In this document: positions 7,287 to 32,174 of the stretch, piece after piece | Numbering within the stretch: the stretch's first letter is position 1 | Layout: each line of letters opens with the position of its first letter | Origin: Myxococcota bacterium | Lineage (GTDB): Bacteria > Myxococcota_A > UBA9160 > UBA4427 | Length of the DNA stretch: 64,000 bases | Direction of reading: 5' to 3' | Assembly: GCA_028278345.1 (NCBI GenBank) | Contig: JANQEL010000159.1 | Location: forward strand, 1-64,000 | Translations under genes and position numbers: made by a program | Notes under the pieces: model-generated | Told to the model about the DNA's origin: nothing | Database searches by the model: none | Seen by the model: the letters and a program-made list of their open reading frames with translations, nothing else

Positions 7287-7958
7287 TCAAGGCTGTAGGC
7301 GCCGCACACTCCACGAAGACCAGCCGCCATCGGCCACCGGTGAGCGGGACCACTGCGCGCGATCGTGGATGCGAGCCGGACGACTCGCCCAGAGTTCGAC
7401 CACGTCGGCGGTCAAGGTGAAGCCCCCCCAATGCGGAGGGCGTGGGATGTCGGCATCCGAAGACCCGTCGAGGGTCACGCCGAAGCGCTCCGCTTCTGCA
7501 TGCACCTTCTCGACGAGCGCGGCACGCGATTCGATCGGTTCGCTCTGGGCACTCGCCCACGCACCCACCCGCGCATCCAGGGGACGCGTGGCGAAGTAGG
7601 CGTCGCACTCGTCGTCGGGCGTGAAGGCGACGCGCCCCTCGACACGCACCGAACGATTCTGCGGCGCGAAGTGGAAGACGATCGCCGCGCGCGGGTTCGC
7701 CCGGATCGCGCGCCCCTTGCGACTCTCCCGATTGGTGAAGATCACGAAGTCGCCGCGCTCGGCATCGACGCGATTGCAGAGCACCGTGCGAGCCGAGGGC
7801 CTTCCGTCGGGGTCGACGGTGGCGAGGGCGACCGCGTGCGGATTCGCCTGCAGACCCGCCTCGAAGGCCTCGCCGAGCCACCTCTCGACGATGGCGCAGG
7901 GTTCTTCGGGAAGCGGATCGCGGGCCAGCCAGGCATCGGGAAGTTCGGCATCGGACAT
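7287..7958 (-). CDS. pdxH: Pyridoxamine 5'-phosphate oxidase
   Basis: An FMN enzyme that oxidises pyridoxine or pyridoxamine 5'-phosphate to pyridoxal 5'-phosphate in vitamin B6 metabolism. At 223 residues it has normal family length. Seen features are the FMN-binding stretch ARTVLCNRVDAERGDFVIFTN (about 55-75), SRKGRAIRANPRAAIVFHF, and the C-terminal dimerisation block starting RPPHWGGFTL and ending RRLQP, close to the RLxP ending of the family. ATG at 7956-7958 (MSDAELPDAW) is chosen; the longer frame adds only 12 residues. It is divergent from the LLM gene at 8047. Confidence 0.9.
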   Translation of the reverse strand: MSDAELPDAWLARDPLPEEPCAIVERWLGEAFEAGLQANPHAVALATVDPDGRPSARTVLCNRVDAERGDFVIFTNRESRKGRAIRANPRAAIVFHFAPQNRSVRVEGRVAFTPDDECDAYFATRPLDARVGAWASAQSEPIESRAALVEKVHAEAERFGVTLDGSSDADIPRPPHWGGFTLTADVVELWASRPARIHDRAQWSRSPVADGGWSSWSVRRLQP

Positions 7959-8046
7959 GGGGAGCACGCTGGCAACGCGTGATCGCCGATGCAACCCTCT
8001 TTCGTCTGCCCACCCCGGACGCGCCCGTCTGCCCAGGAGCCCCCGA

Positions 8047-8991
8047 ATGAACCCCTTCCGCTTCGGCGTGCAGTGCGCGCACCTTCCGGTCGATCGCTGG
8101 CAGAAAGCCGCGCAACAGATCGAAGCCCTCGGCTACTCGACGCTGTTCATTCCGGATCACTTCAGTCCACAGTGGGATCCGATGACGGCCCTGCCCGCCT
8201 TCAGCGCCGTGACGCAGACGTTGAACGTGGGCTCTCTCGTCTACGACGTCGACTATCGCCACCCCGTCATCTACGCCAAGGCGGCGGCGACCCTGCACCT
8301 GCTTTCGGGCGGACGCTTCGAGTTCGGCATCGGCGCCGGGTGGATGGAGACCGACTACGTCGAGGCCGGCATGACCTATGACCGACCGGGGGTCCGCATC
8401 GCCCGTCTCGAGGAGGCCCTCGAGATCATCGTGTCGATGTGGCGCAACGAACGCACGAGCTTCAGCGGCGAGCACTACGAAATCAACGAGATCGCCCAGG
8501 CGGCCGCATTGCCGGAAGGCGAAGAACCGAAGATCCTGATCGGGGGTGGCGGCAAGCGATTGCTTTCGCTGGCCGGACGCTACGCCGACATCGTGGGCAT
8601 CAACCCGGCGATCCCCGAAGGCCGTGTCACCGCCGACACCCCGGCCGACTCGTCCCCGGAACGGACGCGCGAAAAGATCTCCTGGGTGCGCGAAGCCGCC
8701 AGCGCGGCGGGGCGCGACCCCGATGCCATCGAGTTCAACTCCCTCACCTTCGTCACCGCGATCACCGACGATCCGAAACCCCTGCGCGAGAACCTCGCGA
8801 AGTCGTCGGGGATGACGGTCGAGCAGGTCGCCGATTGCCCCCTCTTCCTCACCGGCTCGGCGTCGGAGATCCGCGACCACCTCGAGGGCAGACGCGAAGA
8901 GACCGGCATCAGCTACACGGTGATCCAGGCCGGCGACGAAGCTCTGCTCGAACGGTTCGCGCAGGAAATCGTGGAACCGCTCGCGGGTTGA
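8047..8991 (+). CDS. LLM-class F420-dependent oxidoreductase (MSMEG_2516-type)
   Basis: A 314-residue TIM-barrel enzyme of the luciferase-like family. The N-terminus MNPFRFGVQ and the segments LGYSTLFIPDHFSPQWDP and FEFGIGAGWMETDY match the subfamily I recall as TIGR03621 (probable F420-dependent, MSMEG_2516). Such enzymes usually transfer hydride with the deazaflavin F420; FMN use cannot be excluded from sequence. ATG at 8047 matches the start of the fold; the upstream open frame is antisense to pdxH. A second LLM enzyme follows 34 bases later, so the two are probably co-transcribed. Substrate unknown. Confidence 0.88.
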   Translation: MNPFRFGVQCAHLPVDRWQKAAQQIEALGYSTLFIPDHFSPQWDPMTALPAFSAVTQTLNVGSLVYDVDYRHPVIYAKAAATLHLLSGGRFEFGIGAGWMETDYVEAGMTYDRPGVRIARLEEALEIIVSMWRNERTSFSGEHYEINEIAQAAALPEGEEPKILIGGGGKRLLSLAGRYADIVGINPAIPEGRVTADTPADSSPERTREKISWVREAASAAGRDPDAIEFNSLTFVTAITDDPKPLRENLAKSSGMTVEQVADCPLFLTGSASEIRDHLEGRREETGISYTVIQAGDEALLERFAQEIVEPLAG

Positions 8992-9025
8992 ACCCGCACG
9001 AACGCGCCGCAAGGAAAGGTGGGTC

Positions 9026-9937
9026 ATGCGGATTGGAATCAACGCTTCGGGCATGCTCGGCAACCCCGATCTCGCTCGCCTCGAGGCCCTCGCGCGGGAG
9101 GCCGCCGAGCAGGGCTTCCACTCGTTCTGGCTCGCGCAAGCGACGACGATCGATGCGCTCACGGTGATCGGCGCCCTCGGCCGCGGCATCCCCGACATCG
9201 AGTTCGGCACCGCGGTCGTCCCCACCTATCCGCGGCATCCCTCGATGCTGGCCGCCCAGGCGATGACCACCCAGGCCCTCGTCGATGGACGCCTCACCCT
9301 CGGCATCGGGCTCTCCCACAAGGTGATGATCGAGGGCTACTACGGTCTCTCCTTCGACCGCCCCATCCGGCACATGCGCGAGTACCTCTCGATCCTGATG
9401 CCGCTGATCGACGCGGGCTCGGTCGACTTCGAGGGCGAGACCCTCACCGGGCACGGCGCGATCACGATGCCGGCGGAAACGAAGCCCTGTGACGTGCTCG
9501 TCGCAGCACTCGGTCCGCAGATGCTGCGTCTCGCCGGACATCGCACCGGGGGAACCGTGCTCTGGATGGTCGGCGAAAAGACGATCGCCTCGCACATCGC
9601 GCCGCGAATTCGCGAAGCCGCCGCCAGGGCGGGACGCAGGGAGCCGCGCATCGTGGCCAGCCTGCCGGTCTGCGTGACCGACGACGAGGCCACGAAGCGA
9701 AGCCGCGCCGACCGCGCCTTCGCGATGTACGGCCAGCTGCCGAGTTATCGCGCGATGCTCGATCGAGAGGGTGCGGCGACGCCAACGGATGTCAGCATCC
9801 TCGGCAGCGAGTCCTACGTGCGCGATCGCCTGAGCGCGATCGCCGAAGCCGGAGCGACGGAATTCTCCGCGGTGGAGTTCTGCCGCACCGACGACGAGCG
9901 CGAGCAGACCCGCGAAGTGCTGCGCTCGTTCCTCTAG
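9026..9937 (+). CDS. LLM-class F420-dependent oxidoreductase (MSMEG_4879-type)
   Basis: A 303-residue luciferase-like barrel. MRIGINASGM, EFGTAVVPTYPRHP and GRLTLGIGLSHK match the subfamily I recall as TIGR03564. AAGGAAAGGTGGGTC precedes the ATG, a good ribosome site. It sits 34 bases after another LLM gene and 49 bases before an MFS permease, which suggests one transcript in which the permease imports or exports a substrate of these reductases. The cofactor is inferred from family membership. No F420 biosynthesis gene is in the window. Confidence 0.87.
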   Translation: MRIGINASGMLGNPDLARLEALAREAAEQGFHSFWLAQATTIDALTVIGALGRGIPDIEFGTAVVPTYPRHPSMLAAQAMTTQALVDGRLTLGIGLSHKVMIEGYYGLSFDRPIRHMREYLSILMPLIDAGSVDFEGETLTGHGAITMPAETKPCDVLVAALGPQMLRLAGHRTGGTVLWMVGEKTIASHIAPRIREAAARAGRREPRIVASLPVCVTDDEATKRSRADRAFAMYGQLPSYRAMLDREGAATPTDVSILGSESYVRDRLSAIAEAGATEFSAVEFCRTDDEREQTREVLRSFL

Positions 9938-9986
9938 ACTGCCCCCCTCCCCTCACCCCCCACGCCCGACCCCCACCGGAGTAACC

Positions 9987-11234
9987 GTGTCCTACGCCTG
10001 GCTGATGGTGGCCATCACGTTCCTCACCCACTTCCTCGTGATGGGCTTCGTCTTCTATTCGGCCGGGGTGTTCCTGGTGCCGCTGCAGGAGGAGTTCGCA
10101 GCGGGACGCGCCGAGGTCTCGGCGATCGGGGCGGTCATGAGTGCCGGGGCTGCGGTCTCGGCGCCGTTCATCGGACGTTGGGTGGCGACCCATTCGATCC
10201 GCAACTTCATGACCCTGGGCTGCATCGCCCTGGGCCTCGCCTTCCTCGCCGGTTCCCGGGCCACGGCGATCTGGCAGCTCTTCGTGATCTTCGCGCCGCT
10301 GGCGACGATCGGCATGACCACGATGGGCGGGGTCACCACACAGACCCTGGTGGTCAACTGGTTCAAGGACGACCGCGCGATGCCATTGGGCATCTCGATG
10401 GTGGGCATCTCGGCGTCCGGTTTCGTGATTCCCCCGCTGGCGAGTGCCATCACGGAAGCCCAGAGCTGGCGCGAAGCGTACGAGGTGATGGGCCTGGCCA
10501 GTCTCGCCCTCACTCCGATCGTATTCTTCACCGTCGTGAGCCGCCCGGAAGAACGCAACCCGGAAGCCGAGCTCGAGCCCGTGGAGACGGCGGCCGACGC
10601 CGAAGCCGAGGCGCCCCCGTTCGCCACCCGCGAAGCACTCAAGGAGCGCAACCTCTGGACGATCGCCAGTGCGAGTGGGCTGTCCTTCATGGCGACGAGT
10701 GCCGTCATGCTCCACATCGCTGCGCACGGCCTGGGCGAAGGGCTGGGGAGTACCGACGCGGCCTTCCTGATCTCCGCAGCCGCCGCCGGCGCAGCCGCTG
10801 CCAAGATCATCTTCGGTTGGCTCGGCACGAAGATCGGAGAGCTGCGCGCGATCCAGTTGGCCTTCGCGGCGCAAGGCCTCGGTACGCTCGCCCTCAACTA
10901 CGGAACCGACGTCGAGTTCTTCATCGCGGCCGCCGCCGTGTGCGGACTCGGCTTCGGTGGCGTGGCTCCGCTCGGTGCTGCGCTTCTCGCGCGCGCCTTC
11001 GGCCCCGCTCTCTTCGGCCCCATGATGGGCTTGATGACGCCCATCATGATCTTGTTCCAGGTGATCGGCGCCCCGGCGGCCGGCGCCGTATTCGACTTCA
11101 CCCAGAGCTACGAGTTGGCGTGGTATGGACTCTCCACCGCGATGCTCGGCGCGATCGTCGCCGTCTCACTCACGCGGCTCCCGGCCGAAGACATCGCGGA
11201 ATCCGCCGCCGAAGCAGCGCCCCTCGAAGCCTGA
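9987..11234 (+). CDS. MFS transporter (monocarboxylate/oxalate-formate type)
   Basis: A 415-residue integral membrane protein with about twelve hydrophobic helices in two halves, joined by an acidic cytoplasmic loop near residues 190-212 (EERNPEAELEPVETAADAEAE). The N-terminal helix with FYSAGVFLVPLQEEF and the following RAEVSAIGAVMSAGAAVSAP segment resemble MFS carriers of organic acids. The GTG start at 9987 has CCGGAGTAACC upstream and begins the first helix directly. It follows two LLM genes and may share their transcript, though a TAGACT element at 9935-9940 could be a separate promoter. Substrate unknown. Confidence 0.88.
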   Translation: MSYAWLMVAITFLTHFLVMGFVFYSAGVFLVPLQEEFAAGRAEVSAIGAVMSAGAAVSAPFIGRWVATHSIRNFMTLGCIALGLAFLAGSRATAIWQLFVIFAPLATIGMTTMGGVTTQTLVVNWFKDDRAMPLGISMVGISASGFVIPPLASAITEAQSWREAYEVMGLASLALTPIVFFTVVSRPEERNPEAELEPVETAADAEAEAPPFATREALKERNLWTIASASGLSFMATSAVMLHIAAHGLGEGLGSTDAAFLISAAAAGAAAAKIIFGWLGTKIGELRAIQLAFAAQGLGTLALNYGTDVEFFIAAAAVCGLGFGGVAPLGAALLARAFGPALFGPMMGLMTPIMILFQVIGAPAAGAVFDFTQSYELAWYGLSTAMLGAIVAVSLTRLPAEDIAESAAEAAPLEA

Positions 11235-12797: not shown

Positions 12798-14120
12798 GTG
12801 AGCGACATCACCACCGATCATCCGATCGCGCTCATCGGCGCCGGGCCCAGCGGTCTTGCGGCCTGCAAGGCGCTCCACGAAGCCGGCCTCGCCTTCGCCT
12901 GTTTCGAAGCGGGGCCGACCGTGGGCGGCATCTGGAACGTCGAGGCGGAGCGCAGCGGGGGCTATCGCTCCCTCGAGACGAATACGTCGAAGCCCAAGAT
13001 GGCGTATTCCGACTTCCCCTTTCCCGACGACGCCCCGGACTTCCCCGATCACCGCGCCATGCTGCGCTACTTCGAGGCCTATGCGGAGCATTTCGGCTTC
13101 CGGGACCGGATCCAGCTCGACACGCCGGTCGAAGCCGCCGAGCCCATCGAGGGCGGCGCCTGGCGGCTGCGCTCTGCCGATGGGCATGAGCGCAACTTCT
13201 CGGCTTGTGTCGTAGCCACCGGGCAATACGGCACGCCGCGCTGGCCCGATCCGATGCCGCCGGGTTCCTTCGCCGGTCGCCAACTCCACGCCTTCGACTA
13301 CCTCGACCCCACCACCCCGATCGACCTGCGCGGGCAACGCGTCGTCGTCGTCGGCCTGGGTTCGACCGCTGCCGAACTCGCAACGGAGCTGGGCGGCGGC
13401 AAGGCGGGGCCATCGATCGCGAAGGAGGTCACGATCTCGGCGCGCTCGGGTCGCTGGATCCTGCCGAAACGACTGAACGGCCTGCCCCTCGACAACAACA
13501 CGCCCCATCCCGGCACGCCCCTGCCAAAGGCCGCGCGCTGGATCCCCGAAGCCGCGAAGAAGAAGTTGATGCAGACCTTCATCAGCAAGGCCTTCGGAGG
13601 CATGGCGGAGCAGGTCGGGAAGCCCGAGACCTGGAACCTGCCCAACCCCGCCTTTCCTCCCTACGAAGAGCGCCCCACCCTTTCGGATGGCTTCATCGAT
13701 GCCCTCGAGGCGGGTCGCGTACGCGGGCGCCCGGGCATCTCGCGCTTCGACGGCAAGCAGGTGATCTTCAGCGACGACTCGTCGGTCGAAGCCGATGTCG
13801 TGATGTGGGCCACCGGCTACCGGCTGGCCTTTCCGTTCTTTTCGCAGCAGGTACTCGGCTGCGAAGCTCCCGACCTCGCCCTCTACCGACGCATCGTGCA
13901 CCCGCAGCAGAAGAACCTCTACTTCATCGGCTACACGCGCGTGCTGTGTTCGCTCTGGCCGATCTCCGAAGTCCAGTCCGTCTGGCTCGCGAAGCTCTTG
14001 AGCGGGGCGTTCGAGCTTCCACCTCGAGAGCGCATGCAGGCCGAAGCCATCGAGGTTGCCAGGGCCCTACCCGTCTTCTGTAACCTGCACGCTTCGATGC
14101 TTCGGGAAGATTTCGAATGA
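12798..14120 (+). CDS. Flavin-containing monooxygenase
   Basis: A 440-residue FAD/NADPH oxygenase. Seen motifs are the FAD Rossmann motif GAGPSGL near residue 14, the FMO signature FxGxxxHxxxY as FAGRQLHAFDY near 155, the NADPH motif VVVVGLGSTAAEL near 175, and the ATGY motif (VMWATGYRLAFPF) near 345. Enzymes of this type oxygenate soft nucleophiles (N or S), and relatives act as Baeyer-Villiger oxygenases; the substrate cannot be told. The GTG start abuts the TAG of the preceding gene (TAGGTG), so translation is likely coupled. Its last 4 bases overlap the next start. Confidence 0.9.
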   Translation: MSDITTDHPIALIGAGPSGLAACKALHEAGLAFACFEAGPTVGGIWNVEAERSGGYRSLETNTSKPKMAYSDFPFPDDAPDFPDHRAMLRYFEAYAEHFGFRDRIQLDTPVEAAEPIEGGAWRLRSADGHERNFSACVVATGQYGTPRWPDPMPPGSFAGRQLHAFDYLDPTTPIDLRGQRVVVVGLGSTAAELATELGGGKAGPSIAKEVTISARSGRWILPKRLNGLPLDNNTPHPGTPLPKAARWIPEAAKKKLMQTFISKAFGGMAEQVGKPETWNLPNPAFPPYEERPTLSDGFIDALEAGRVRGRPGISRFDGKQVIFSDDSSVEADVVMWATGYRLAFPFFSQQVLGCEAPDLALYRRIVHPQQKNLYFIGYTRVLCSLWPISEVQSVWLAKLLSGAFELPPRERMQAEAIEVARALPVFCNLHASMLREDFE

Positions 14121-22642: not shown

Positions 22643-23249
22643 CGGTCGCTCCCTGTCGTTCGAGTTCCGTCGTCAATGTCTCGGCCAGCATGCGCAGGGG
22701 CCGCGACCAGCCGCGATCGGAACCGGCGCGGTCGAGATTGCGTGTCGACGCGAGCCCCGAGAGCACGGCGACAGTGTAGAGCTGGAGATCGATGGTCTGC
22801 GGACCCTGCGGATCGCTCTGGGGAAACCAGCGCGCCCAGATTCGACCCCAATGCCCCAGCATCTGGCGCTGCCACGGCACCTCGATCTCGTCGGGAAGGT
22901 TCTGGAGGATCTCGAAGGTCGTGCGGTACTCGGCGCTGCTGAAGTGTCCCCAGGCGCGCTCGACGAAGAGGCCCACCCGCTTCTCGAGTTCGGGTTCGTC
23001 GGGAACATCGCCGAGGCGTTCGGCGAACCGATCGAAGGAGGCCTCGAGCACCGCGGCCAGGATGCCGTTCTTGTCGCCGAAGTGATGTTGCACCGCACCC
23101 CAGGTGACGCCCGCGCGCTTCGCGATCTCGTTGGCGGTGGTGCGGCCGAAGCCCACTTCGTTGATCGCCTCGACGACCGCGGTCATCACCCGGTCGCGGG
23201 TCTCGGCGGTGCGTTCGGCGTGGGTGCGTCGCGCCCGGGCCGGGGTCAT
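22635..23249 (-). CDS. TetR-family transcriptional regulator of the CYP51-type locus
   Basis: 204 residues. The helix-turn-helix is GRTTANEIAKRAGVTWGAVQHHF (about residues 30-52), with a C-terminal ligand domain. Start ATG at 23247-23249 overlaps the upstream dehydrogenase stop (ATGA), and its own stop overlaps the CoA-transferase start, so all three are translationally coupled. The strong palindrome at 24206-24231 between this operon and the divergent P450 operon is the obvious candidate operator. A ligand such as an acyl-CoA or steroid/terpenoid intermediate is a guess from neighbours. Confidence 0.9.
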   Translation of the reverse strand: MTPARARRTHAERTAETRDRVMTAVVEAINEVGFGRTTANEIAKRAGVTWGAVQHHFGDKNGILAAVLEASFDRFAERLGDVPDEPELEKRVGLFVERAWGHFSSAEYRTTFEILQNLPDEIEVPWQRQMLGHWGRIWARWFPQSDPQGPQTIDLQLYTVAVLSGLASTRNLDRAGSDRGWSRPLRMLAETLTTELERQGATDG

Positions 23250-24118
23250 GCCCCTTCCTCTTCTTCGATCACACCGTAGAAGCGCGCCATCGACTGCGAG
23301 ACCAGGCCGGCGACGGGCAATCTCAACCCGTTCGTTCTCGCGAGCTGCAGCACCCAGGTGAGATCCTTCTCCGCGATCGCCGTGTGATTGCGCATCAGGG
23401 CCTGGAAGTCTTCGTTGGAACGCACCTCGGGCGGCAGCTTCAGGCCCGTCATGTACTGCTGCATCATCGGCGTGATCTGCCCGTTCGACTTTCCCGCCGC
23501 TTCGAGGACTTCGACCGGGAGGCCCGCGGCCTTCGCGAGGTGCAGCGATTCGTACGCCGCCGCCCACTGGATGTAGGTGATCAGGTTGATGCAGAGCTTG
23601 AGCTTCGCGCCGTTGCCGAGTTCGCCCGCGTGGATGATGGGGACTTCGGAGGTCGCCTCGAAGTATGGGCGCGCCTTGTCGACGGCGGCTTCGTCGCCAC
23701 CGATCAGGTAGGTGATCTGCTTCACCTTGGCGCGTGCCTCCCCGCCCGTGACGCAGGCATCGACCACCGCGATGCCCTGCTCCTTCGCCGCACTCTCCAC
23801 CTGGCTCGCGGTATCGGGAAGCACGGTGCTGTGGATCAGGATCACGCCACCCGGCGACATCCCCGCCAACAGGCCGTCTTCGCCGAGCACCACCGCGAGC
23901 ACGTGCTTGTCCTCGGGAACACAGATCCCGACGACATCCGCGTTGGCCCCCACTTCGCGGGGCGACTTCGCGGCCTTCGCACCGTCGGCCGCAAGCTCGG
24001 CCATCGGTGCCTCGACGACATCGTAGACGGTGGTCTCGAATCCGGCGGGGGCGAGGTGGGCCGCGATCGGCTTGCCCTGGTTGCCGAGGCCGATGAAGCC
24101 GACGCGAAGTGAAGGCAT
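23246..24118 (-). CDS. 3-hydroxyisobutyrate dehydrogenase-family NAD(P) oxidoreductase
   Basis: 290 residues of the beta-hydroxyacid dehydrogenase family. The cofactor motif is GFIGLGNQG at 7-15; DACVTGGEARAK corresponds to the substrate-binding SGG motif, and the catalytic lysine is in GNGAKLKLCINL. ATG at 24116-24118; a longer frame runs into the operator region and is rejected. First gene of a coupled operon with a TetR regulator and a CoA-transferase, divergent from the P450 operon. I recall a related dehydrogenase (Rv0770) near the mycobacterial cyp51 locus, which supports a joint pathway. Confidence 0.88.
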   Translation of the reverse strand: MPSLRVGFIGLGNQGKPIAAHLAPAGFETTVYDVVEAPMAELAADGAKAAKSPREVGANADVVGICVPEDKHVLAVVLGEDGLLAGMSPGGVILIHSTVLPDTASQVESAAKEQGIAVVDACVTGGEARAKVKQITYLIGGDEAAVDKARPYFEATSEVPIIHAGELGNGAKLKLCINLITYIQWAAAYESLHLAKAAGLPVEVLEAAGKSNGQITPMMQQYMTGLKLPPEVRSNEDFQALMRNHTAIAEKDLTWVLQLARTNGLRLPVAGLVSQSMARFYGVIEEEEGA

Positions 24119-24205
24119 GAGCGGGGGTCTCCTGGCTGAAGCGACCGGAGCCCGTACGAGCACCCGCGCCACGGTCCCTGTGAATCGATGCCGCACATTA
24201 TCTCA

Positions 24206-25460: not shown

Positions 25461-26951
25461 ATGGCCCTGCCCCCGCTCGCTCCCGAAACCCGCAACCTGA
25501 TCGACGGTGTGCTCTGCGACGCCAGCAACGGCAACACCTTCGACAACCTGAACCCGACCACGGGTGAACTGCTGGGCCAGGCGGCCGACGGCACGAAGGA
25601 CGACATGCTGCGCGCCGTCGAGGTGGCCCGCCGCGCCTTCGACGAGACCGACTGGAGCCTCGATCACGACTTCCGCAGCAAGTGCCTGCAGCAACTCTAC
25701 GAAGGGATCCTCGAACAGAAGGAACAACTGCGCTCGATCGTGGTGCACGAAGCCGGCGCCCCGGTTTCGCTCACGGGGTACATGCACGTCGACGATCCGG
25801 TCGAGCACATGAAGTACTGGGCCGATCTGGCGGCGTCGTACGAGTACGAGACCCGCATGAGCAACATCCCCTTCCTGGGCCGCGAGAACGGACGCCTGCT
25901 CCGCCGTGAGGCCGCGGGAGTGGTCGGTGCCATCACACCGTGGAACGTGCCCCTCTATCTCAACATCGCGAAGATCGGGCCTTCGCTGGCCGCCGGCTGC
26001 ACGACCGTGTTGAAGCCCGCGCCGGACACCCCCTGGTGCGCAACGCACCTGGGCAAGATCATCGCCGAGAAGACCGACATCCCCGCCGGCGTCGTCAACA
26101 TCGTGGCGAGTTCGGATCATCTCACCGGCGAAATCCTGAGCAGCGATCCCCGCATCGATGTCGTCACTTTCACGGGTTCGACGGCGACGGGTCGGCGCAT
26201 CATGGAGTGCGCGGCGCCCACGGTGAAGAACGTCTTCCTCGAACTCGGGGGCAAGTCGGCCAACATCGTGCTCGACGACGTCGACCTCGCCGCGACGCTG
26301 CCGATGGCGGCCATGACGTGTGTGCACGGCGGGCAGGGTTGCGCGATCACGACGCGGCTGCTGGTGCCGCGGTCGCGCTACGACGAAGCGAAGGAGATCC
26401 TGAAGGCTTCCTTCGAGGGTTGGAGCTACGGCGATCCCCAGGACCCGGCCAACCTGCAGGGGCCCCAGGTGAGCACGCGCCAACAGGAGCGCGTGCTCGA
26501 CTACATCGAGAAGGGCAAGGAGGAAGGCGCCACCTGTCTCGTCGGCGGAGGGATCGCCGACGGCGACCTGGGCGAGAAGGGATGCTTCGTGAAGCCCACC
26601 CTCTTCGTCGACGTCGACCCCGAAATGACGATCGCCCAGGAGGAGATCTTCGGCCCCGTGCTCTGCGTGATCCCCTACGAGGATGACGACGACGCCGTGC
26701 GCATCGCGAACAACTCCGTGTACGGGCTTTCGGGCTCGATCCAGACGAATGACGTCCAGCGCGGTCTCGACGTGGCGCGCCGCATCCGCACCGGCACGAT
26801 CTCGGTGGCGGGCGCGCAGTGGTTCAACGTCGACACCCCCTTCGGCGGTTACAAGCAGAGCGGCGTTGGCCGCGAGAATGGCGTGATGGGTTTCGAGGAG
26901 TTCCTCGAGACCAAGATCATCGCGATCCCCGCCGACGCCGAAGTGAAGTAG
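25461..26951 (+). CDS. NAD(P)-dependent aldehyde dehydrogenase
   Basis: A 496-residue class 1/2 type aldehyde dehydrogenase. The catalytic base is Glu261 in ELGGKSANIV and the nucleophile is Cys294 in GGQGCAI; the cofactor segment FTGSTATGRRI and GAITPWNVPLYLNI are also clear. ATG at 25461 begins the family N-terminus; an open frame further upstream is antisense-like shadow of the P450. Followed with no gap by the CYP51 fusion (TAGGTG), so translation is coupled. An aldehyde dehydrogenase (aldA, Rv0768) also lies beside mycobacterial cyp51, as I recall. It would oxidise an aldehyde made by one of the P450s. Confidence 0.93.
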   Translation: MALPPLAPETRNLIDGVLCDASNGNTFDNLNPTTGELLGQAADGTKDDMLRAVEVARRAFDETDWSLDHDFRSKCLQQLYEGILEQKEQLRSIVVHEAGAPVSLTGYMHVDDPVEHMKYWADLAASYEYETRMSNIPFLGRENGRLLRREAAGVVGAITPWNVPLYLNIAKIGPSLAAGCTTVLKPAPDTPWCATHLGKIIAEKTDIPAGVVNIVASSDHLTGEILSSDPRIDVVTFTGSTATGRRIMECAAPTVKNVFLELGGKSANIVLDDVDLAATLPMAAMTCVHGGQGCAITTRLLVPRSRYDEAKEILKASFEGWSYGDPQDPANLQGPQVSTRQQERVLDYIEKGKEEGATCLVGGGIADGDLGEKGCFVKPTLFVDVDPEMTIAQEEIFGPVLCVIPYEDDDDAVRIANNSVYGLSGSIQTNDVQRGLDVARRIRTGTISVAGAQWFNVDTPFGGYKQSGVGRENGVMGFEEFLETKIIAIPADAEVK

Positions 26952-28613
26952 GTGGCGGCGCCCGAGCTGGAGATTCCGCGCGGCGTTCACGCCGAGCCGA
27001 CGCCCGAACATCCGGGCGGCGAGGCGCCCCCCGTGCTATCGCGGCACTGGCCCCTGGTCGGTCACCTCCAGGAGTTGCGCAAGGACCCGATCGGCCTGTT
27101 CCAACGCGTGCGCGACGAACTCGGGGAGATCGGCGAGATCAATTTCGCCGGCAATCGCGTGGTCATGCTGATGGGCGAAGAAGCCCAGGAGGCCTTCTTC
27201 CGCGGTAGCGACGAACAGCTCGACCAGGCCGCGGCCTACCCCTTCATGACACCGGTGTTCGGCAAGGGGGTGGTCTTCGACGGCACCCCCGAACAGCGCA
27301 AGCAGGCGCTTCGCAATCAATCGCTCACGGCGAAGTTCATGAAGGGGCACGCCGAGACGATCTCGCGCGAGACCCAACGCATGATGTCGGGCCTCGGGGA
27401 CGAAGGGGAGATCGACGTCCTCGACTTCTTCGCCGAGCTCACGAGTTACACGTCGAGCGCTTGCCTGATCGGGCCGGAGTTCCGGGAAGAACTCACGCCC
27501 GAGTACTTCCGGGCGTTCTACGAGCTGGAGAAGGGGACGGACGCCCTCGCCTACGTGAACCCCTACCTGCCCCTCCCGGTCTTTCGCACCCGCGACCGCG
27601 CCCGCGCCCGGCTCGTCGAGTTGCTCACCGGCGTGTTCGAGCGCCGCCAGGCGAACCCCGACGCGAAGCCCGAACTGTTCGACATCCTGCTGCGACTGCG
27701 AGACGAGAACGGAAAGCCCCGCTACACGATCGATCAGATCACGGGCATGTTCATTTCGCTGATGTTCGCCGGCCACCACACCACCTCGGGCACCGCGGCC
27801 TGGACGCTCATCGAGATGCTCAGACACCCCCACGCCATGCGCGAGGTGGTGAACGAACTCGACGAGATCTACGCCGACGGCCGCGACGTCTCCTACCAGG
27901 CGCTACGCGAGATCCCGCAGCTCGAGAACAACCTGAAGGAAGCGCTGCGGCTGCATCCACCGCTCATCATCCTGATGCGCAAGGTGATGTACGACTTCCA
28001 CTACAAGGGGTACACGGTGCCCGCGGGCAAGCTGGTGGGGGTTTCGCCGGCCGTCAGCAATCGAATGCCCGAGAACTTCCCCTCGCCCGAAGCCTACGAC
28101 CCGCATCGCTACGACCCCGATCGCCGGGAAGACCAGCAGCTCTTCGCCTGGATCCCGTTCGGCGCCGGACGCCACCGCTGCGTGGGCAACGCCTTCGCGA
28201 TGATGCAGCTCAAGGCGATCTTCAGCGATCTGTTGCGCGCCTACGAGTTCGAACTGGCGCAACCACCGGAGAGCTACCGCAACGATCACACGAAGATGGT
28301 CGTGCAGCTCGAGCAGCCGTGTCGAGTGCGCTACCGCCGTCGCAAGTCGATGGTGGCGGCGACGTCGCCCGCGAAAGCCTCGACGGCCACACCGGGCGAA
28401 GGCCCGGAGGGGGACGTGCGCATCGTCGTCGATCTCGACCTGTGCCAGGGGCACGCGGTCTGCGCCGCCGAAGCGCCGGAGGTGTTCCGCGTCGACGAAG
28501 ACTCTCGCAAGGTGGTGCTGCTCGACGAAACGCCCCATGCGAACCTGCGCGACAAGGTGGACCTCGCCGTACGACACTGCCCCACCCGCGCCCTGACACT
28601 CGAGCCGCGCTGA
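26952..28613 (+). CDS. cyp51: CYP51 sterol 14-alpha-demethylase fused to a [3Fe-4S] ferredoxin
   Basis: 553 residues in two domains. Residues 30-465 are a CYP51: the B'-C signature YPFMTPVFGKGVVFD, the I-helix FAGHHTTSGTA (273-283), E330/R333, and the haem loop FGAGRHRCVG with Cys410, plus QPPESYRNDH, closely recall mycobacterial CYP51. After an Ala/Thr/Pro linker (about 468-487), residues 488-553 form a ferredoxin with DLDLCQGHAVC and a final CPTRAL: Cys498, Cys504, Cys543, the CxxHxxC...CP pattern of P450-partner [3Fe-4S] ferredoxins. CYP51 removes the 14-alpha-methyl of sterols in three oxidations. The fusion supplies electrons in cis, as in the Methylococcus CYP51 fusion. GTG start abuts the previous stop. 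Confidence 0.93.
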   Translation: MAAPELEIPRGVHAEPTPEHPGGEAPPVLSRHWPLVGHLQELRKDPIGLFQRVRDELGEIGEINFAGNRVVMLMGEEAQEAFFRGSDEQLDQAAAYPFMTPVFGKGVVFDGTPEQRKQALRNQSLTAKFMKGHAETISRETQRMMSGLGDEGEIDVLDFFAELTSYTSSACLIGPEFREELTPEYFRAFYELEKGTDALAYVNPYLPLPVFRTRDRARARLVELLTGVFERRQANPDAKPELFDILLRLRDENGKPRYTIDQITGMFISLMFAGHHTTSGTAAWTLIEMLRHPHAMREVVNELDEIYADGRDVSYQALREIPQLENNLKEALRLHPPLIILMRKVMYDFHYKGYTVPAGKLVGVSPAVSNRMPENFPSPEAYDPHRYDPDRREDQQLFAWIPFGAGRHRCVGNAFAMMQLKAIFSDLLRAYEFELAQPPESYRNDHTKMVVQLEQPCRVRYRRRKSMVAATSPAKASTATPGEGPEGDVRIVVDLDLCQGHAVCAAEAPEVFRVDEDSRKVVLLDETPHANLRDKVDLAVRHCPTRALTLEPR

Positions 28614-28659: not shown

Positions 28660-29220
28660 ATGCCCGCCTTCCCCCGAGAAGAGATCCAGGAGATGGTCGA
28701 CCGCTGGGTCGCCGCCAACGACGAAGCCGGTCGCACGGGCGACTGGTCGCACATGAGCGCGTTCTTCCAGGAAGACGCGATCTACAGCTGGTGCACGGGC
28801 CCGAAGTGGGAGTTCGTCGCACGCGGTCGCCAGCAGATCCACGACTGGGCGTTCGGCAGCGAAATGGCCGGCCTCGAGAAGTGGACCTACCCCTACGTGC
28901 GCACCCTGATCGACGACCAGAAGGGGGAATTCATCGGCATCTGGCGTCAGGTCGCCCCGATCAAGGATCCCGATGGCGTGCCCTATGAGATCCACGGCAC
29001 CGGCGGTTCCTGGTTCCGCTACGGTGGCGACTTCAAGTGGGCCTGGCAGCGCGACTTCTTCGATCACGGCTGTGCCGGCGCCACGTTCGGCGCGATGATG
29101 CAGAACGGTGACCTCAACGAAACCATGCTCGAGCGCATGAAGAAGGGCAGCAAGATGCCGGGTTGGACGAAGCGCAGCGAGTTCAACTGGTTCGACACGC
29201 TGCTCGATCCCGAAGCCTGA
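28660..29220 (+). CDS. NTF2-like / SnoaL-type protein
   Basis: 186 residues. A cone-shaped NTF2-like fold is suggested by the N-terminal helix EEIQEMVDRWVAANDEAG, the early block WSHMSAFFQEDAIYSW, and later strands (GTGGSWFRYGGDFKWAWQRDFF). SnoaL-like proteins isomerise, cyclise or hydrate polyketide and steroid rings; some are only binding proteins. It has many Trp and Phe residues, suiting a hydrophobic pocket. GGAATCG-type spacing with AAAGGAA ahead of the ATG provides the ribosome site. It lies in the CYP51 operon, and the next gene begins at the base after its TGA. Confidence 0.75.
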   Translation: MPAFPREEIQEMVDRWVAANDEAGRTGDWSHMSAFFQEDAIYSWCTGPKWEFVARGRQQIHDWAFGSEMAGLEKWTYPYVRTLIDDQKGEFIGIWRQVAPIKDPDGVPYEIHGTGGSWFRYGGDFKWAWQRDFFDHGCAGATFGAMMQNGDLNETMLERMKKGSKMPGWTKRSEFNWFDTLLDPEA

Positions 29221-30234
29221 GTGAAACCTTTCGACCCCGTCCTCGTCACCGGCGCGACCGGCTTCATCGGTTTCCACACCGCAAAGGTGTTGCGCCAGCG
29301 CGGACATCCGGTGCGGGCACTCGTGCGTGATCGCGAGAAGGCCGAGCGCGTTCTCGGGCCGCTCGGGATCCAGGGCGATGACGTCGTCGTGGGCGACATG
29401 ACCGACGTGGATGCCGTGCGCCGTGCGCTCCAGGGTTGCGCCGGCGTCGTCCACGCCGCCGCCAGCGTCACCGTCACCTCGGGCACGGTCGACACCTCGG
29501 CGAACCTGCGCGGCACCGAAGCCGTGATCGGCACCGCGTGCGAGGCCGGCCAATACGCGATCTTCGTTTCGAGTCTCACCGCCATCTTCGATCCGAAGCG
29601 CGAGATCACCGACGACGCCCCACTGGCGAAGAGCCGAACCGTCTACGGCCGCTCGAAGGCCGAGTGCGACGCCTGGGTACGCAAGCACCAGGCCGCGGGA
29701 GCGCCCGTGGCCATCGTGTACCCACCCGGCGTGGTCGGCCCTGACGATCCGGGCTTCAGCGAATCGGTGAAGGCCTACCGCGCCTTCTTGCGGGGGACGC
29801 TGCAGAGCGAAGGCGGCAATCAACTCCTCGACGTGCGCGACCTGGCGGAACTCTTCGCGCGCATGCTCGAAGACGAAACCACGGGACGCATCGTCGCGGC
29901 CGGGCACTACTTCGACTGGGATGGCTTCAACGCCCTGCTCGAAGGCGTGACCGGCGCGAAGATCCCGCGCATTCGCGCGCCGGGTTGGGTGTTGCGCGGT
30001 GCAGCGCGCGTACTCGACGTCGTGGGCGCGGTGCTGCGTCGCCCGATGCCCATGACCTTCGAGGGGATCGAGATCGCGACGCGCTTCCCCCGCATGATCG
30101 ACTCACCGGTGATCGAACGTCTCGGACTCCACTGGCGCCCCGCCGAAGAGACCACCGAGGATCTCTTCCGTTGGTTCGTCGAGGCGGGGAAGCTCCCAGC
30201 GAAGGTCGTACCCAGGCTGGGCCCCTCCACCTGA
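29221..30234 (+). CDS. NAD-dependent epimerase/dehydratase (3-beta-HSD / DFR-like)
   Basis: 337 residues of the extended short-chain dehydrogenase class. The Rossmann motif is TGATGFIG (10-17), and the catalytic pair is YxxxK in TVYGRSKAECD (about 141-151). The family includes dihydroflavonol reductases, 3-beta-hydroxysteroid dehydrogenases and sterol C-4 decarboxylases. In a CYP51 operon a 3-beta-hydroxysteroid role is attractive, but the sequence does not prove it. The GTG start abuts the preceding stop (TGAGTG), indicating coupled translation. Confidence 0.85.
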   Translation: MKPFDPVLVTGATGFIGFHTAKVLRQRGHPVRALVRDREKAERVLGPLGIQGDDVVVGDMTDVDAVRRALQGCAGVVHAAASVTVTSGTVDTSANLRGTEAVIGTACEAGQYAIFVSSLTAIFDPKREITDDAPLAKSRTVYGRSKAECDAWVRKHQAAGAPVAIVYPPGVVGPDDPGFSESVKAYRAFLRGTLQSEGGNQLLDVRDLAELFARMLEDETTGRIVAAGHYFDWDGFNALLEGVTGAKIPRIRAPGWVLRGAARVLDVVGAVLRRPMPMTFEGIEIATRFPRMIDSPVIERLGLHWRPAEETTEDLFRWFVEAGKLPAKVVPRLGPST

Positions 30235-30268: not shown

Positions 30269-31135
30269 TTGCAGTTCTACATCGCCGTGGCCTACGCCGA
30301 TCCCACGCATCTCTGCGAAATCGCCCGCACCGCCGAAGAGGCCGGCTTCGGGGGCCTGATCGTCTCGGACCACATGATCTATCCAGGCGAGTTGAAGACG
30401 CCCTACCCCTACACGAGCCATGGCAAGCCGCGCTGGGAACCCGAGACCCCCTGGGCCGAACCGATGGTGGCGATCGGCGCGATGTCGGCGGTGACGACGA
30501 CCCTGCGCTTCGTAACGAGCGTCTACCTGCTCGTGTTGCGCCACCCGGTGCTGGCCGCCAAGGCGATCTCGACCGCGGCGGTGATGTCGAACGACCGCCT
30601 CACCCTCGGCGTCGGCGCCGGTTGGATGCGCGAAGAATTCGACCTGCTCGGCATCCGCTTCGAACGACGCGGAGCGCGCCTCGGCGAATCGATCGAGGTG
30701 CTCCGCAAGGTGCTCGCGGGGGGCTATGTCGAACACCACGGCGAGTTCTTCGACTTCGAACCCATCTCGATCAGCCCCGTCCCGACGAAGCCCGTCCCGA
30801 TCTATGGCGGTGGGCTCTCGCAACCCGCGCTGCGCCGCGCCGCACGCCTGTGCGACGGCTGGGCTTCCGATCAGAACACGCGCGCCGATCTCGAAGTCGC
30901 CCTCGGCGACCTGAAGCGCTTTCGCAGGGAGGCCGGACGCGAGGACGAACCCTTCGGCATCTGCACCGCGATGCTCGACGTGATCACCCTCGACGGTTAT
31001 CGCGAAATGGGTGACCTCGGCGTGACGGAGCTCATTACCGTCCCCTGGCTCTTCTACGGCGGCAAGGAGCAGAGCGCGCAGCAGAAGTGCGACGGCATCC
31101 GCCGTTTCGGCGAAGAGGTGATCGCGAAGTTGTAG
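30269..31135 (+). CDS. LLM-class F420-dependent oxidoreductase (Rv2161c-type)
   Basis: 288 residues of luciferase-like barrel. MQFYIAVAYADPTHL, GLIVSDHMIYPGEL, RLTLGVGAGWMREEF and RGARLGESIEVLRK match the subfamily I recall as TIGR03619. The start is TTG at 30269, with CGAGGG nine bases upstream; no ATG or GTG is available near the conserved beginning. Part of the rightward CYP51 operon, 34 bases after the epimerase. Probably reduces a double bond or carbonyl with F420H2; substrate unknown. Confidence 0.87.
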   Translation: MQFYIAVAYADPTHLCEIARTAEEAGFGGLIVSDHMIYPGELKTPYPYTSHGKPRWEPETPWAEPMVAIGAMSAVTTTLRFVTSVYLLVLRHPVLAAKAISTAAVMSNDRLTLGVGAGWMREEFDLLGIRFERRGARLGESIEVLRKVLAGGYVEHHGEFFDFEPISISPVPTKPVPIYGGGLSQPALRRAARLCDGWASDQNTRADLEVALGDLKRFRREAGREDEPFGICTAMLDVITLDGYREMGDLGVTELITVPWLFYGGKEQSAQQKCDGIRRFGEEVIAKL

Positions 31136-31181: not shown

Positions 31182-32174
31182 ATGAGCCACGACACGCTGA
31201 CCACCGTCACAGGAGAGATCGCCCCCGCCGCCCTGGGCAAGACGCTGATGCACGAGCATCTCGTAATCGGCTACCCGGGCTTCGAGAGCGACACGCTGCA
31301 CCCCGGTCCGGATCGCGAAGAACGCGTGGCGCGTTGCATCGATCGCATCAGCGAACTCCAGGATCTCGGTTTCACTTCCCTGCTCGATCCCTGTCCGAGC
31401 GACCTCGGACGCGACGTCGAACTCACGGCCAGGGTCGCGCAACAGACGGGCTTCCAGATCATCTGTGCGACGGGTCTCTACAAACAGAGCGAAGGCGGTC
31501 ATCCGTACTGGCACATGCGGGGCCTCTACGGCGATTCCGTCGACGCGATGGCCGAACTCTTCATCCGCGAGATCACCGAGGGGATCGGTTCGACCGGAGT
31601 GCGGGCCGGCATCATCAAGGTCGCGACGGGGCTCGGGCAGATGACCGACTACGAGCGCGCGGTCTTCGAGGCGGCCGCCCGGGCCTCGGCGGAAACCGGT
31701 GCGCCGATCACGACCCACACCGACCAGGGCACGGTCGGCGATCTCCAGCAACAGGTGCTCACCGAACACGGCGCCGAAGCAAATCGCATCGTGATCGGGC
31801 ATTCGTGCGGCACCTCGGACACCGACTACCACCTGAAGATCGCGCGCGCAGGTTCCTACCTCGGCTTCGATCGCTTCGGTCTCGAGGTCCTCCACCCCGA
31901 CGAAGAGCGCATTGCCTCCCTCAAGCGCCTGATCGACCACGGCGCCGGCGATCGCATCGTGGTGGCCCACGACTCCGTCTGGTGCTGGCGCGGCCAGCCG
32001 ATCCCGGCTGTCATGCTGCAGAAGATGGAAGAGACCTGGAACCCCTCCCACTTCAGCCTGCGCGTCGTGCCGAGGCTGAAGGAGGTCGGCGTGAGCGACG
32101 AGCAGATCGACGCATTGCTCGTCGACAATCCGCGGCGCTTCTTTGCAGGTGAGAAGCTGCCAGCACTCTCCTGA
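31182..32174 (+). CDS. Phosphotriesterase-family metal hydrolase
   Basis: 330 residues of amidohydrolase-type barrel. Visible metal ligands are HEH near residues 24-26, the carboxylated-lysine site in GIIKVATG, a His in ITTHTDQGT, a His in IVIGHSCGT and the Asp in VVAHDSVW. Members hydrolyse phosphotriesters or, more often in nature, lactones. A lactonase opening an oxidised ring or acyl lactone would fit the last step of the oxygenase operon, but this is inference. GGAGGATCCC precedes the ATG. It converges on the sulfotransferase 14 bases away; a GAGCG/CGCTC hairpin at 32173-32185 may act as terminator. Confidence 0.9.
   Translation: MSHDTLTTVTGEIAPAALGKTLMHEHLVIGYPGFESDTLHPGPDREERVARCIDRISELQDLGFTSLLDPCPSDLGRDVELTARVAQQTGFQIICATGLYKQSEGGHPYWHMRGLYGDSVDAMAELFIREITEGIGSTGVRAGIIKVATGLGQMTDYERAVFEAAARASAETGAPITTHTDQGTVGDLQQQVLTEHGAEANRIVIGHSCGTSDTDYHLKIARAGSYLGFDRFGLEVLHPDEERIASLKRLIDHGAGDRIVVAHDSVWCWRGQPIPAVMLQKMEETWNPSHFSLRVVPRLKEVGVSDEQIDALLVDNPRRFFAGEKLPALS

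Follow-up and report, generated by a model that had tools for sequence, protein, structure and literature searches.

A CYP51–ferredoxin fusion beside an 8,14-sterol reductase homolog in a myxococcotal gene cluster

Known CYP51–ferredoxin systems and the fusion protein

The wide occurrence of bacterial CYP51–ferredoxin fusions, the possible split of such a fusion in mycobacteria by way of a stop codon, and the association of CYP51 and ferredoxin with a bacterial 8,14-sterol reductase (Bsr), including in uncultured Myxococcota, are already published (PMC9519919, PMC9868604, PMC13277303). According to two of these studies, there are "large numbers of bacterial CYP51-fx fusions" (PMC9519919; PMC9868604), which were stated to occur in Actinobacteria too (PMC9868604). 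When produced in Escherichia coli, the Methylococcus CYP51-ferredoxin gave a Δ8,14 product, from which Bsr homologs of M. capsulatus, Mycobacterium tuberculosis, and an uncultured myxobacterium then yielded an 8(14)-sterol (PMC13277303). In uncultured Myxococcota, CYP51 was found fused or co-localized with ferredoxin and Bsr (Lee, Giner, and Welander 2026, PMC13277303). For M. tuberculosis, Rv0766c, Rv0764c, and Rv0763c are CYP123A1, CYP51B1, and Fdx, respectively (PMC6469627).

Here, we analyzed a Myxococcota locus located in a DNA stretch of 64,000 nucleotides, which we call the window. It is quite likely that this locus encodes a tethered-ferredoxin sterol 14α-demethylase working together with an adjacent 8,14-sterol reductase and that the origin of the fusion is shared with Methylococcus. 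Taken alone, the fusion mostly confirms the literature of 2021 to 2026. Compared with the Myxococcota loci of Lee et al., the window adds genes for an upstream P450, an aldehyde dehydrogenase (ALDH), a short-chain dehydrogenase (SDR), an LLM oxidoreductase, and a phosphotriesterase-like protein, and the same genome adds a second CYP51–ferredoxin on another contig. To our knowledge, what is new here are the counts of fused and unfused states by clade, the extension of the shared cluster to further genes, and the complementary occurrence of Bsr and ERG24.

The fusion is encoded on the plus strand (26952 to 28613, stop codon included) by one uninterrupted frame of 553 residues that has a GTG start, contains no internal stop, and begins right after the ALDH stop codon. 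As originally predicted, this single frame carries CYP51, a linker, and a C-terminal ferredoxin, and its host is a diderm, a property taken from the phylum Myxococcota. The P450 domain comprises residues 30 to 457 (27039 to 28322; Pfam, 239 bits) and the interdomain linker residues 466 to 488 (about 23 amino acids; 28347 to 28415), the alignment to the M. tuberculosis protein stopping at residue 465. The single-cluster ferredoxin domain (28416 to 28604), with the motif CQGHAVC…CP, matches Fer4_15/Fer4_13 over residues 491 to 549 and has the solved relatives 6mcw, 8amp, and 4id8. An assembly artifact or frameshift was ruled out as the cause of the fusion, the identical fused frame being present in dozens of metagenome-assembled genomes (MAGs). 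The E-values, together with the recurrence of the frame in many independent MAGs, also exclude a chance match.

All three CYP51 blocks that had been quoted beforehand were located in the protein. The SRS1 block YPFMTPVFGKGVVFD (residues 96 to 110; 27237 to 27281) has the Y-x-F/L/I…G…V…D pattern and is conserved across clades, the SRS4 GHHT block FAGHHTTSG of the I-helix occupies residues 272 to 280 (27765 to 27791), and the heme-cysteine block FGAGRHRCVG occupies residues 403 to 412 (28158 to 28187); ExxR is present as EALR. The protein is thus a CYP51 with a predicted sterol 14α-demethylase activity, as judged from its M. tuberculosis and M. capsulatus homologs. The genome encodes about 50 P450s and many carriers of the gene lack sterol synthesis, so that a CYP51-like P450 could conceivably have been repurposed for a non-sterol triterpenoid or another lipid; we regard this as very improbable, since the substrate-contact blocks are intact and near-invariant throughout the clade and the Bsr partner is retained. 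The SRS1 residue F98 is a phenylalanine in every actinobacterial member examined and an isoleucine in Methylococcus. A phenylalanine at this position of CYP51 goes with a preference for C-4-monomethyl substrates, and F98 therefore suggests a C-4-monomethyl sterol as the substrate.

The solved structures that best match the fusion protein are the CYP51s of Mycobacterium marinum (597 bits) and M. tuberculosis (592 to 595 bits), whereas the M. capsulatus CYP51-ferredoxin 6mcw is the sole solved relative that aligns across both domains (residues 19 to 552). With the latter (PDB 6mcw/7snm), the window protein shares the domain order in one polypeptide, a similar linker length, and a CxGHxxC ferredoxin, but it differs from it in SRS1 and in belonging to a separate clade of the P450 tree. 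The P450 domain is closer to mycobacterial CYP51 (61% identity to Rv0764c) than to that of Methylococcus (49%), as anticipated, although CYP51 and Fdx are two genes in M. tuberculosis. The ferredoxin had been expected to resemble the mycobacterial partner but is no closer to it, with an identity of 53% to the Methylococcus domain and 48% to Rv0763c. On the basis of the CxxHxxC…CP motif, its cluster is probably of the [3Fe-4S] type; the cluster of the Methylococcus fusion was modeled as [2Fe-2S] in one paper (PMC9519919).

Distribution and history of the fusion

Among 329 Myxococcota genomes, 80 had a CYP51 match at an E-value of ≤1e-60. After removal of duplicates, 70 CYP51s remained, of which 47 were fused, 7 had an adjacent separate ferredoxin, and 16 were unfused with no ferredoxin nearby (one of these is cut at a contig edge). 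Thus, the fusion known from Methylococcus is not confined to it. Both gammaproteobacterial genomes that group with Methylococcus in the tree, and that by this placement are probably Methylococcales, carry fusions as well. The CYP51–ferredoxin fusion is a widespread, previously described type and the common form in the Myxococcota order of the source organism. In Nocardioides, Actinomadura, and other members of their class, however, all 93 loci were unfused; a ferredoxin gene was directly next to CYP51 in 90 of them, and the gap was ≤180 bp in 89 of these 90 pairs. Apparent fusions in Nocardioides and Actinomadura, produced by tblastn joining both genes, were dropped after frame analysis showed separate genes at all 93 loci. 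The actinobacterial fusions mentioned in the literature (PMC9868604) accordingly had no example among these 93 loci.

The source genome encodes a second CYP51–ferredoxin fusion on contig C288 (L134:6735-8375, minus strand), which is 60% identical to the window fusion and forms a clade of its own with eight further Myxococcota fusions. It has an SDR neighbor and no Bsr neighbor. Another distinct CYP51 clade (L181, L182, L197, and L212-L218) consists of Myxococcota and one gammaproteobacterial MAG. Most of its members have a separate adjacent ferredoxin, and several of the genomes additionally carry a window-type fusion.

A P450 tree of 55 rows was rooted with the ferredoxin-less CYP51s. A basal clade of fused Myxococcota proteins is followed by an unfused clade, the Methylococcus clade, and a clade that unites the C288-type, actinobacterial, and window-type proteins. 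The Methylococcus clade, which contains the fusions of Methylococcus, gammaproteobacteria, and Myxococcota of family f20, is well defined (support, 100/99), and the window-type fusions are placed outside it as the sister group of the unfused actinobacterial clade (89/87). The node uniting the Methylococcus clade with the C288/actinobacteria/window clade is weak (80/50). Of the separate domain trees proposed for the two parts of the protein, that of the P450 gave a placement, whereas the ferredoxin-only tree, built from 63 columns and with 44 of its 85 internal branches left open, was too short to decide. Branching of the window P450 inside the Methylococcus clade, which the original prediction had named as the sign of a single origin, was not seen; as a sign of a single origin, it had been drawn too narrowly, since fusions are also found outside that clade.

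At least four deep P450 clades contain fused members and enclose the unfused actinobacteria in the tree, and the fused and unfused states change three times across 88 rows. By clade, three events can be read either as one early fusion followed by two splits or as two fusions and one split, and in both histories the window and Methylococcus proteins inherit one common fusion. A separate fusion in each of the four fused clades takes four events. The number of residues up to the first cluster cysteine is 37 to 45 in the Methylococcus and window clades and 44 to 115 in the basal clade, and the similar linker lengths of the former two agree with a shared fusion. An approximately unbiased (AU) test rejected a single clade of all fused P450s (p of about 1e-7), a result that concerns monophyly and not the number of fusion events.

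The fusion had originally been proposed to have arisen independently, and an origin in Myxococcota from an adjacent CYP51/ferredoxin pair of the actinobacterial type would fit the sister position of the window P450 to the unfused actinobacterial proteins, its higher identity to M. tuberculosis, the gene cluster common to the window and Actinobacteria, and the gaps of mostly 0 to 180 bp across which adjacent genes are easily fused. We nevertheless consider such an origin unlikely. It calls for at least four fusions (in the basal Myxococcota, Methylococcus, C288-type, and window clades), whereas three events in total are sufficient when the fusion is shared; moreover, the linkers are of similar length in the Methylococcus and window clades, and no close grouping of the ferredoxin with its mycobacterial counterpart was seen. 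Because the histories with the fewest events share one fusion, the window fusion most likely has the same origin as that of Methylococcus and was later split in Actinobacteria, a history that is weakly decided at three versus four events.

The adjacent Bsr homolog and the shared gene cluster

The gene directly downstream of the fusion (28660 to 29220, plus strand) encodes a protein of 186 amino acids. It had a weak SnoaL match in Pfam and no match in a sequence search of the PDB, and its AlphaFold model (pLDDT, 94) has an NTF2/SnoaL fold. Residues F36, Y42, Y77, Y79, D132, and D135 correspond, at a constant offset, to Y37, Y43, Y78, Y80, D133, and D136 of M. capsulatus Bsr, so that five of the six tested active-site residues are retained and the sixth is changed as in Y37F. 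The Y37F variant of Bsr works, and phenylalanine is found there naturally (PMC13277303). Among 138 Bsr homologs from these loci, the active-site set varies only through single gaps and, at its first residue, between tyrosine and phenylalanine. Based on these residues and the predicted fold, the protein is an 8,14-Bsr homolog that is predicted to convert Δ8,14 sterols to 8(14) sterols. In most actinobacterial loci and Myxococcota loci of the window type, the bsr gene is close to CYP51, whereas in the M. capsulatus genome the two are apart (PMC13277303).

The distribution of Bsr was compared with that of the ERG24-type C-14 reductase (PF01222) in 14 genomes scanned for both. Bsr only was found in seven (G000, which is the source genome, G046, G336, G090, G123, G187, and G052), ERG24 only in five (G139, G330, G313, G174, and G202), and both in two (Fisher p = 0.02, with relatedness ignored). 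All five Bsr-less genomes thus have the ERG24-type enzyme, and the PF01222 scan identified none in the source genome or three genus-mates, all of which carry Bsr. The two reductases are nearly mutually exclusive.

Upstream of the fusion, on the same strand, are genes for a second P450 (24250 to 25428) and an Rv0768-type ALDH (25482 to 26951; 672 bits versus a cutoff of 775; start codon not fixed). Downstream of bsr, the plus-strand run continues with an extended SDR of the 3β-HSD/epimerase type (29221 to 30234), for which the HpnA (126 bits) and SdmB (77 bits) matches are both far under the cutoff and which is retained in several Myxococcota loci. It is followed by an F420-type LLM oxidoreductase (30269 to 31135; TIGR03619, above the cutoff) and ends with a phosphotriesterase-family hydrolase (31182 to 32174). 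A 3-hydroxyisobutyrate-dehydrogenase-like gene (23246 to 24196, minus strand) is divergent. The actinobacterial loci contain homologs of the upstream P450 (47 to 52% identity), which adjoin CYP51, as well as of CYP51, Bsr (about 42%), ALDH (50 to 53%), and the hydroxyisobutyrate-dehydrogenase-like protein (33 to 38%), all on one strand and within about 6 kb of CYP51. The upstream P450, Rv0768-type ALDH, CYP51, and Bsr cluster is also present in Nocardioides. On account of these shared genes and the identities of Rv0763c, Rv0764c, and Rv0766c, the window cluster looks like a diderm version of the mycobacterial CYP51 cluster.

A CoA-transferase gene is also near the window CYP51. Elsewhere, the window encodes another P450 (1151-2512, minus strand), two luciferase-like oxidoreductases and an MFS transporter (7621-11234, plus strand), and an FMO-like monooxygenase (12798-14120, plus strand), and it is rich in enzymes of oxidative lipid or xenobiotic metabolism.

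Sterol supply and predicted function

The oxidosqualene cyclase (OSC) and squalene monooxygenase proposed as targets for a genome search were both found in the source genome, a MAG of 7.26 Mb, and they form one fused frame. This frame of 1,187 amino acids (C110:1069-4632; L133) has squalene monooxygenase-like and OSC-like domains, matches human lanosterol synthase (402 bits) and human squalene monooxygenase (81 bits), and contains the OSC-type motif VSDCTAE. Similar fusions are found in three further members of the order (L136, L137, and L138, with L133; about 49 to 50% identity), and a fragment is present in a genus-mate. In G313, the corresponding gene adjoins squalene-synthase-family genes. 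The methods section of a previous study (PMC10070321) mentions fused "SMO/OSC" homologs, to which we liken the C110 frame on the strength of that mention, taking "SMO" as squalene monooxygenase. Two squalene-synthase-family (SQS_PSY) genes are located on contig C63; by tetranucleotide profile, C110 fits the genome and C63 fits less well. The MAG, whose contamination of 5.88% is a caveat for gene content, thus encodes squalene synthase, squalene monooxygenase, and OSC, and de novo sterol synthesis by the source organism is possible as far as can be predicted from genes.

The situation is different in most relatives. Of the 49 CYP51-bearing genomes of the order, 5 have a complete or partial OSC; no further OSC was recognized in the order, and the five weaker cyclases checked have the hopene-cyclase motif DxDDTA. 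If CYP51 acts on sterols, the other 44 genomes would need sterols from outside. Squalene-synthase-family genes were not found in three genus-mates, and in the tested genomes of Nocardioides, Pimelobacter, and Actinomadura neither an OSC nor a complete squalene monooxygenase was found beyond chance-level matches, the Actinomadura cyclases carrying the hopene-cyclase motif.

Given these absences, the chances are about even that the operon serves the breakdown or scavenging of eukaryotic 14α-methyl sterols, as proposed for mycobacteria, instead of biosynthesis. The CoA-transferase, ALDH, and P450 genes close by would suit such a role, and lanosterol-fed Mycobacterium, in work cited in PMC13277303, produced a C19 8(14)-steroid. 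The source genome itself, however, has the fused squalene monooxygenase–OSC and two squalene-synthase-family genes, and in Methylococcus the CYP51/Bsr pair serves biosynthesis.

In the tethered demethylase mechanism that we favor, electrons from an NAD(P)H ferredoxin reductase encoded elsewhere would reach the heme by way of the iron–sulfur cluster of the fused ferredoxin. By analogy with the characterized homologs, CYP51 would strip the 14α-methyl group from a sterol of the lanosterol or obtusifoliol type in three oxidations, and Bsr would then turn the resulting Δ8,14 diene into the 8(14)-monoene. The tether would guarantee a redox partner for CYP51. The substrate could be home-made in the source organism, because the squalene monooxygenase–OSC fusion and the two squalene-synthase-family genes are present, and would be acquired from outside in most relatives. 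The upstream P450, ALDH, and SDR may process the sterol further, but this is guesswork. It is a still bolder and rather doubtful proposal that the same-strand run of second P450, ALDH, CYP51–ferredoxin, Bsr, and SDR, largely common to Myxococcota and Actinobacteria, constitutes a dedicated sterol-demethylating pathway that acts mainly on the sterols of other organisms. The upstream P450, ALDH, and SDR would in that case take off a C-4 methyl group, by oxidation to the acid and 3-keto-assisted decarboxylation, without SdmAB or the eukaryotic SMO.

The fusion is no oddity of Methylococcus, and the separate CYP51 and ferredoxin genes of mycobacteria look like a derived split. In bacteria that do not make sterols, CYP51 is tied to a fixed set of partners, namely, Bsr, a second P450, and an Rv0768-type ALDH, and this set makes the role of mycobacterial CYP51 testable in other organisms.
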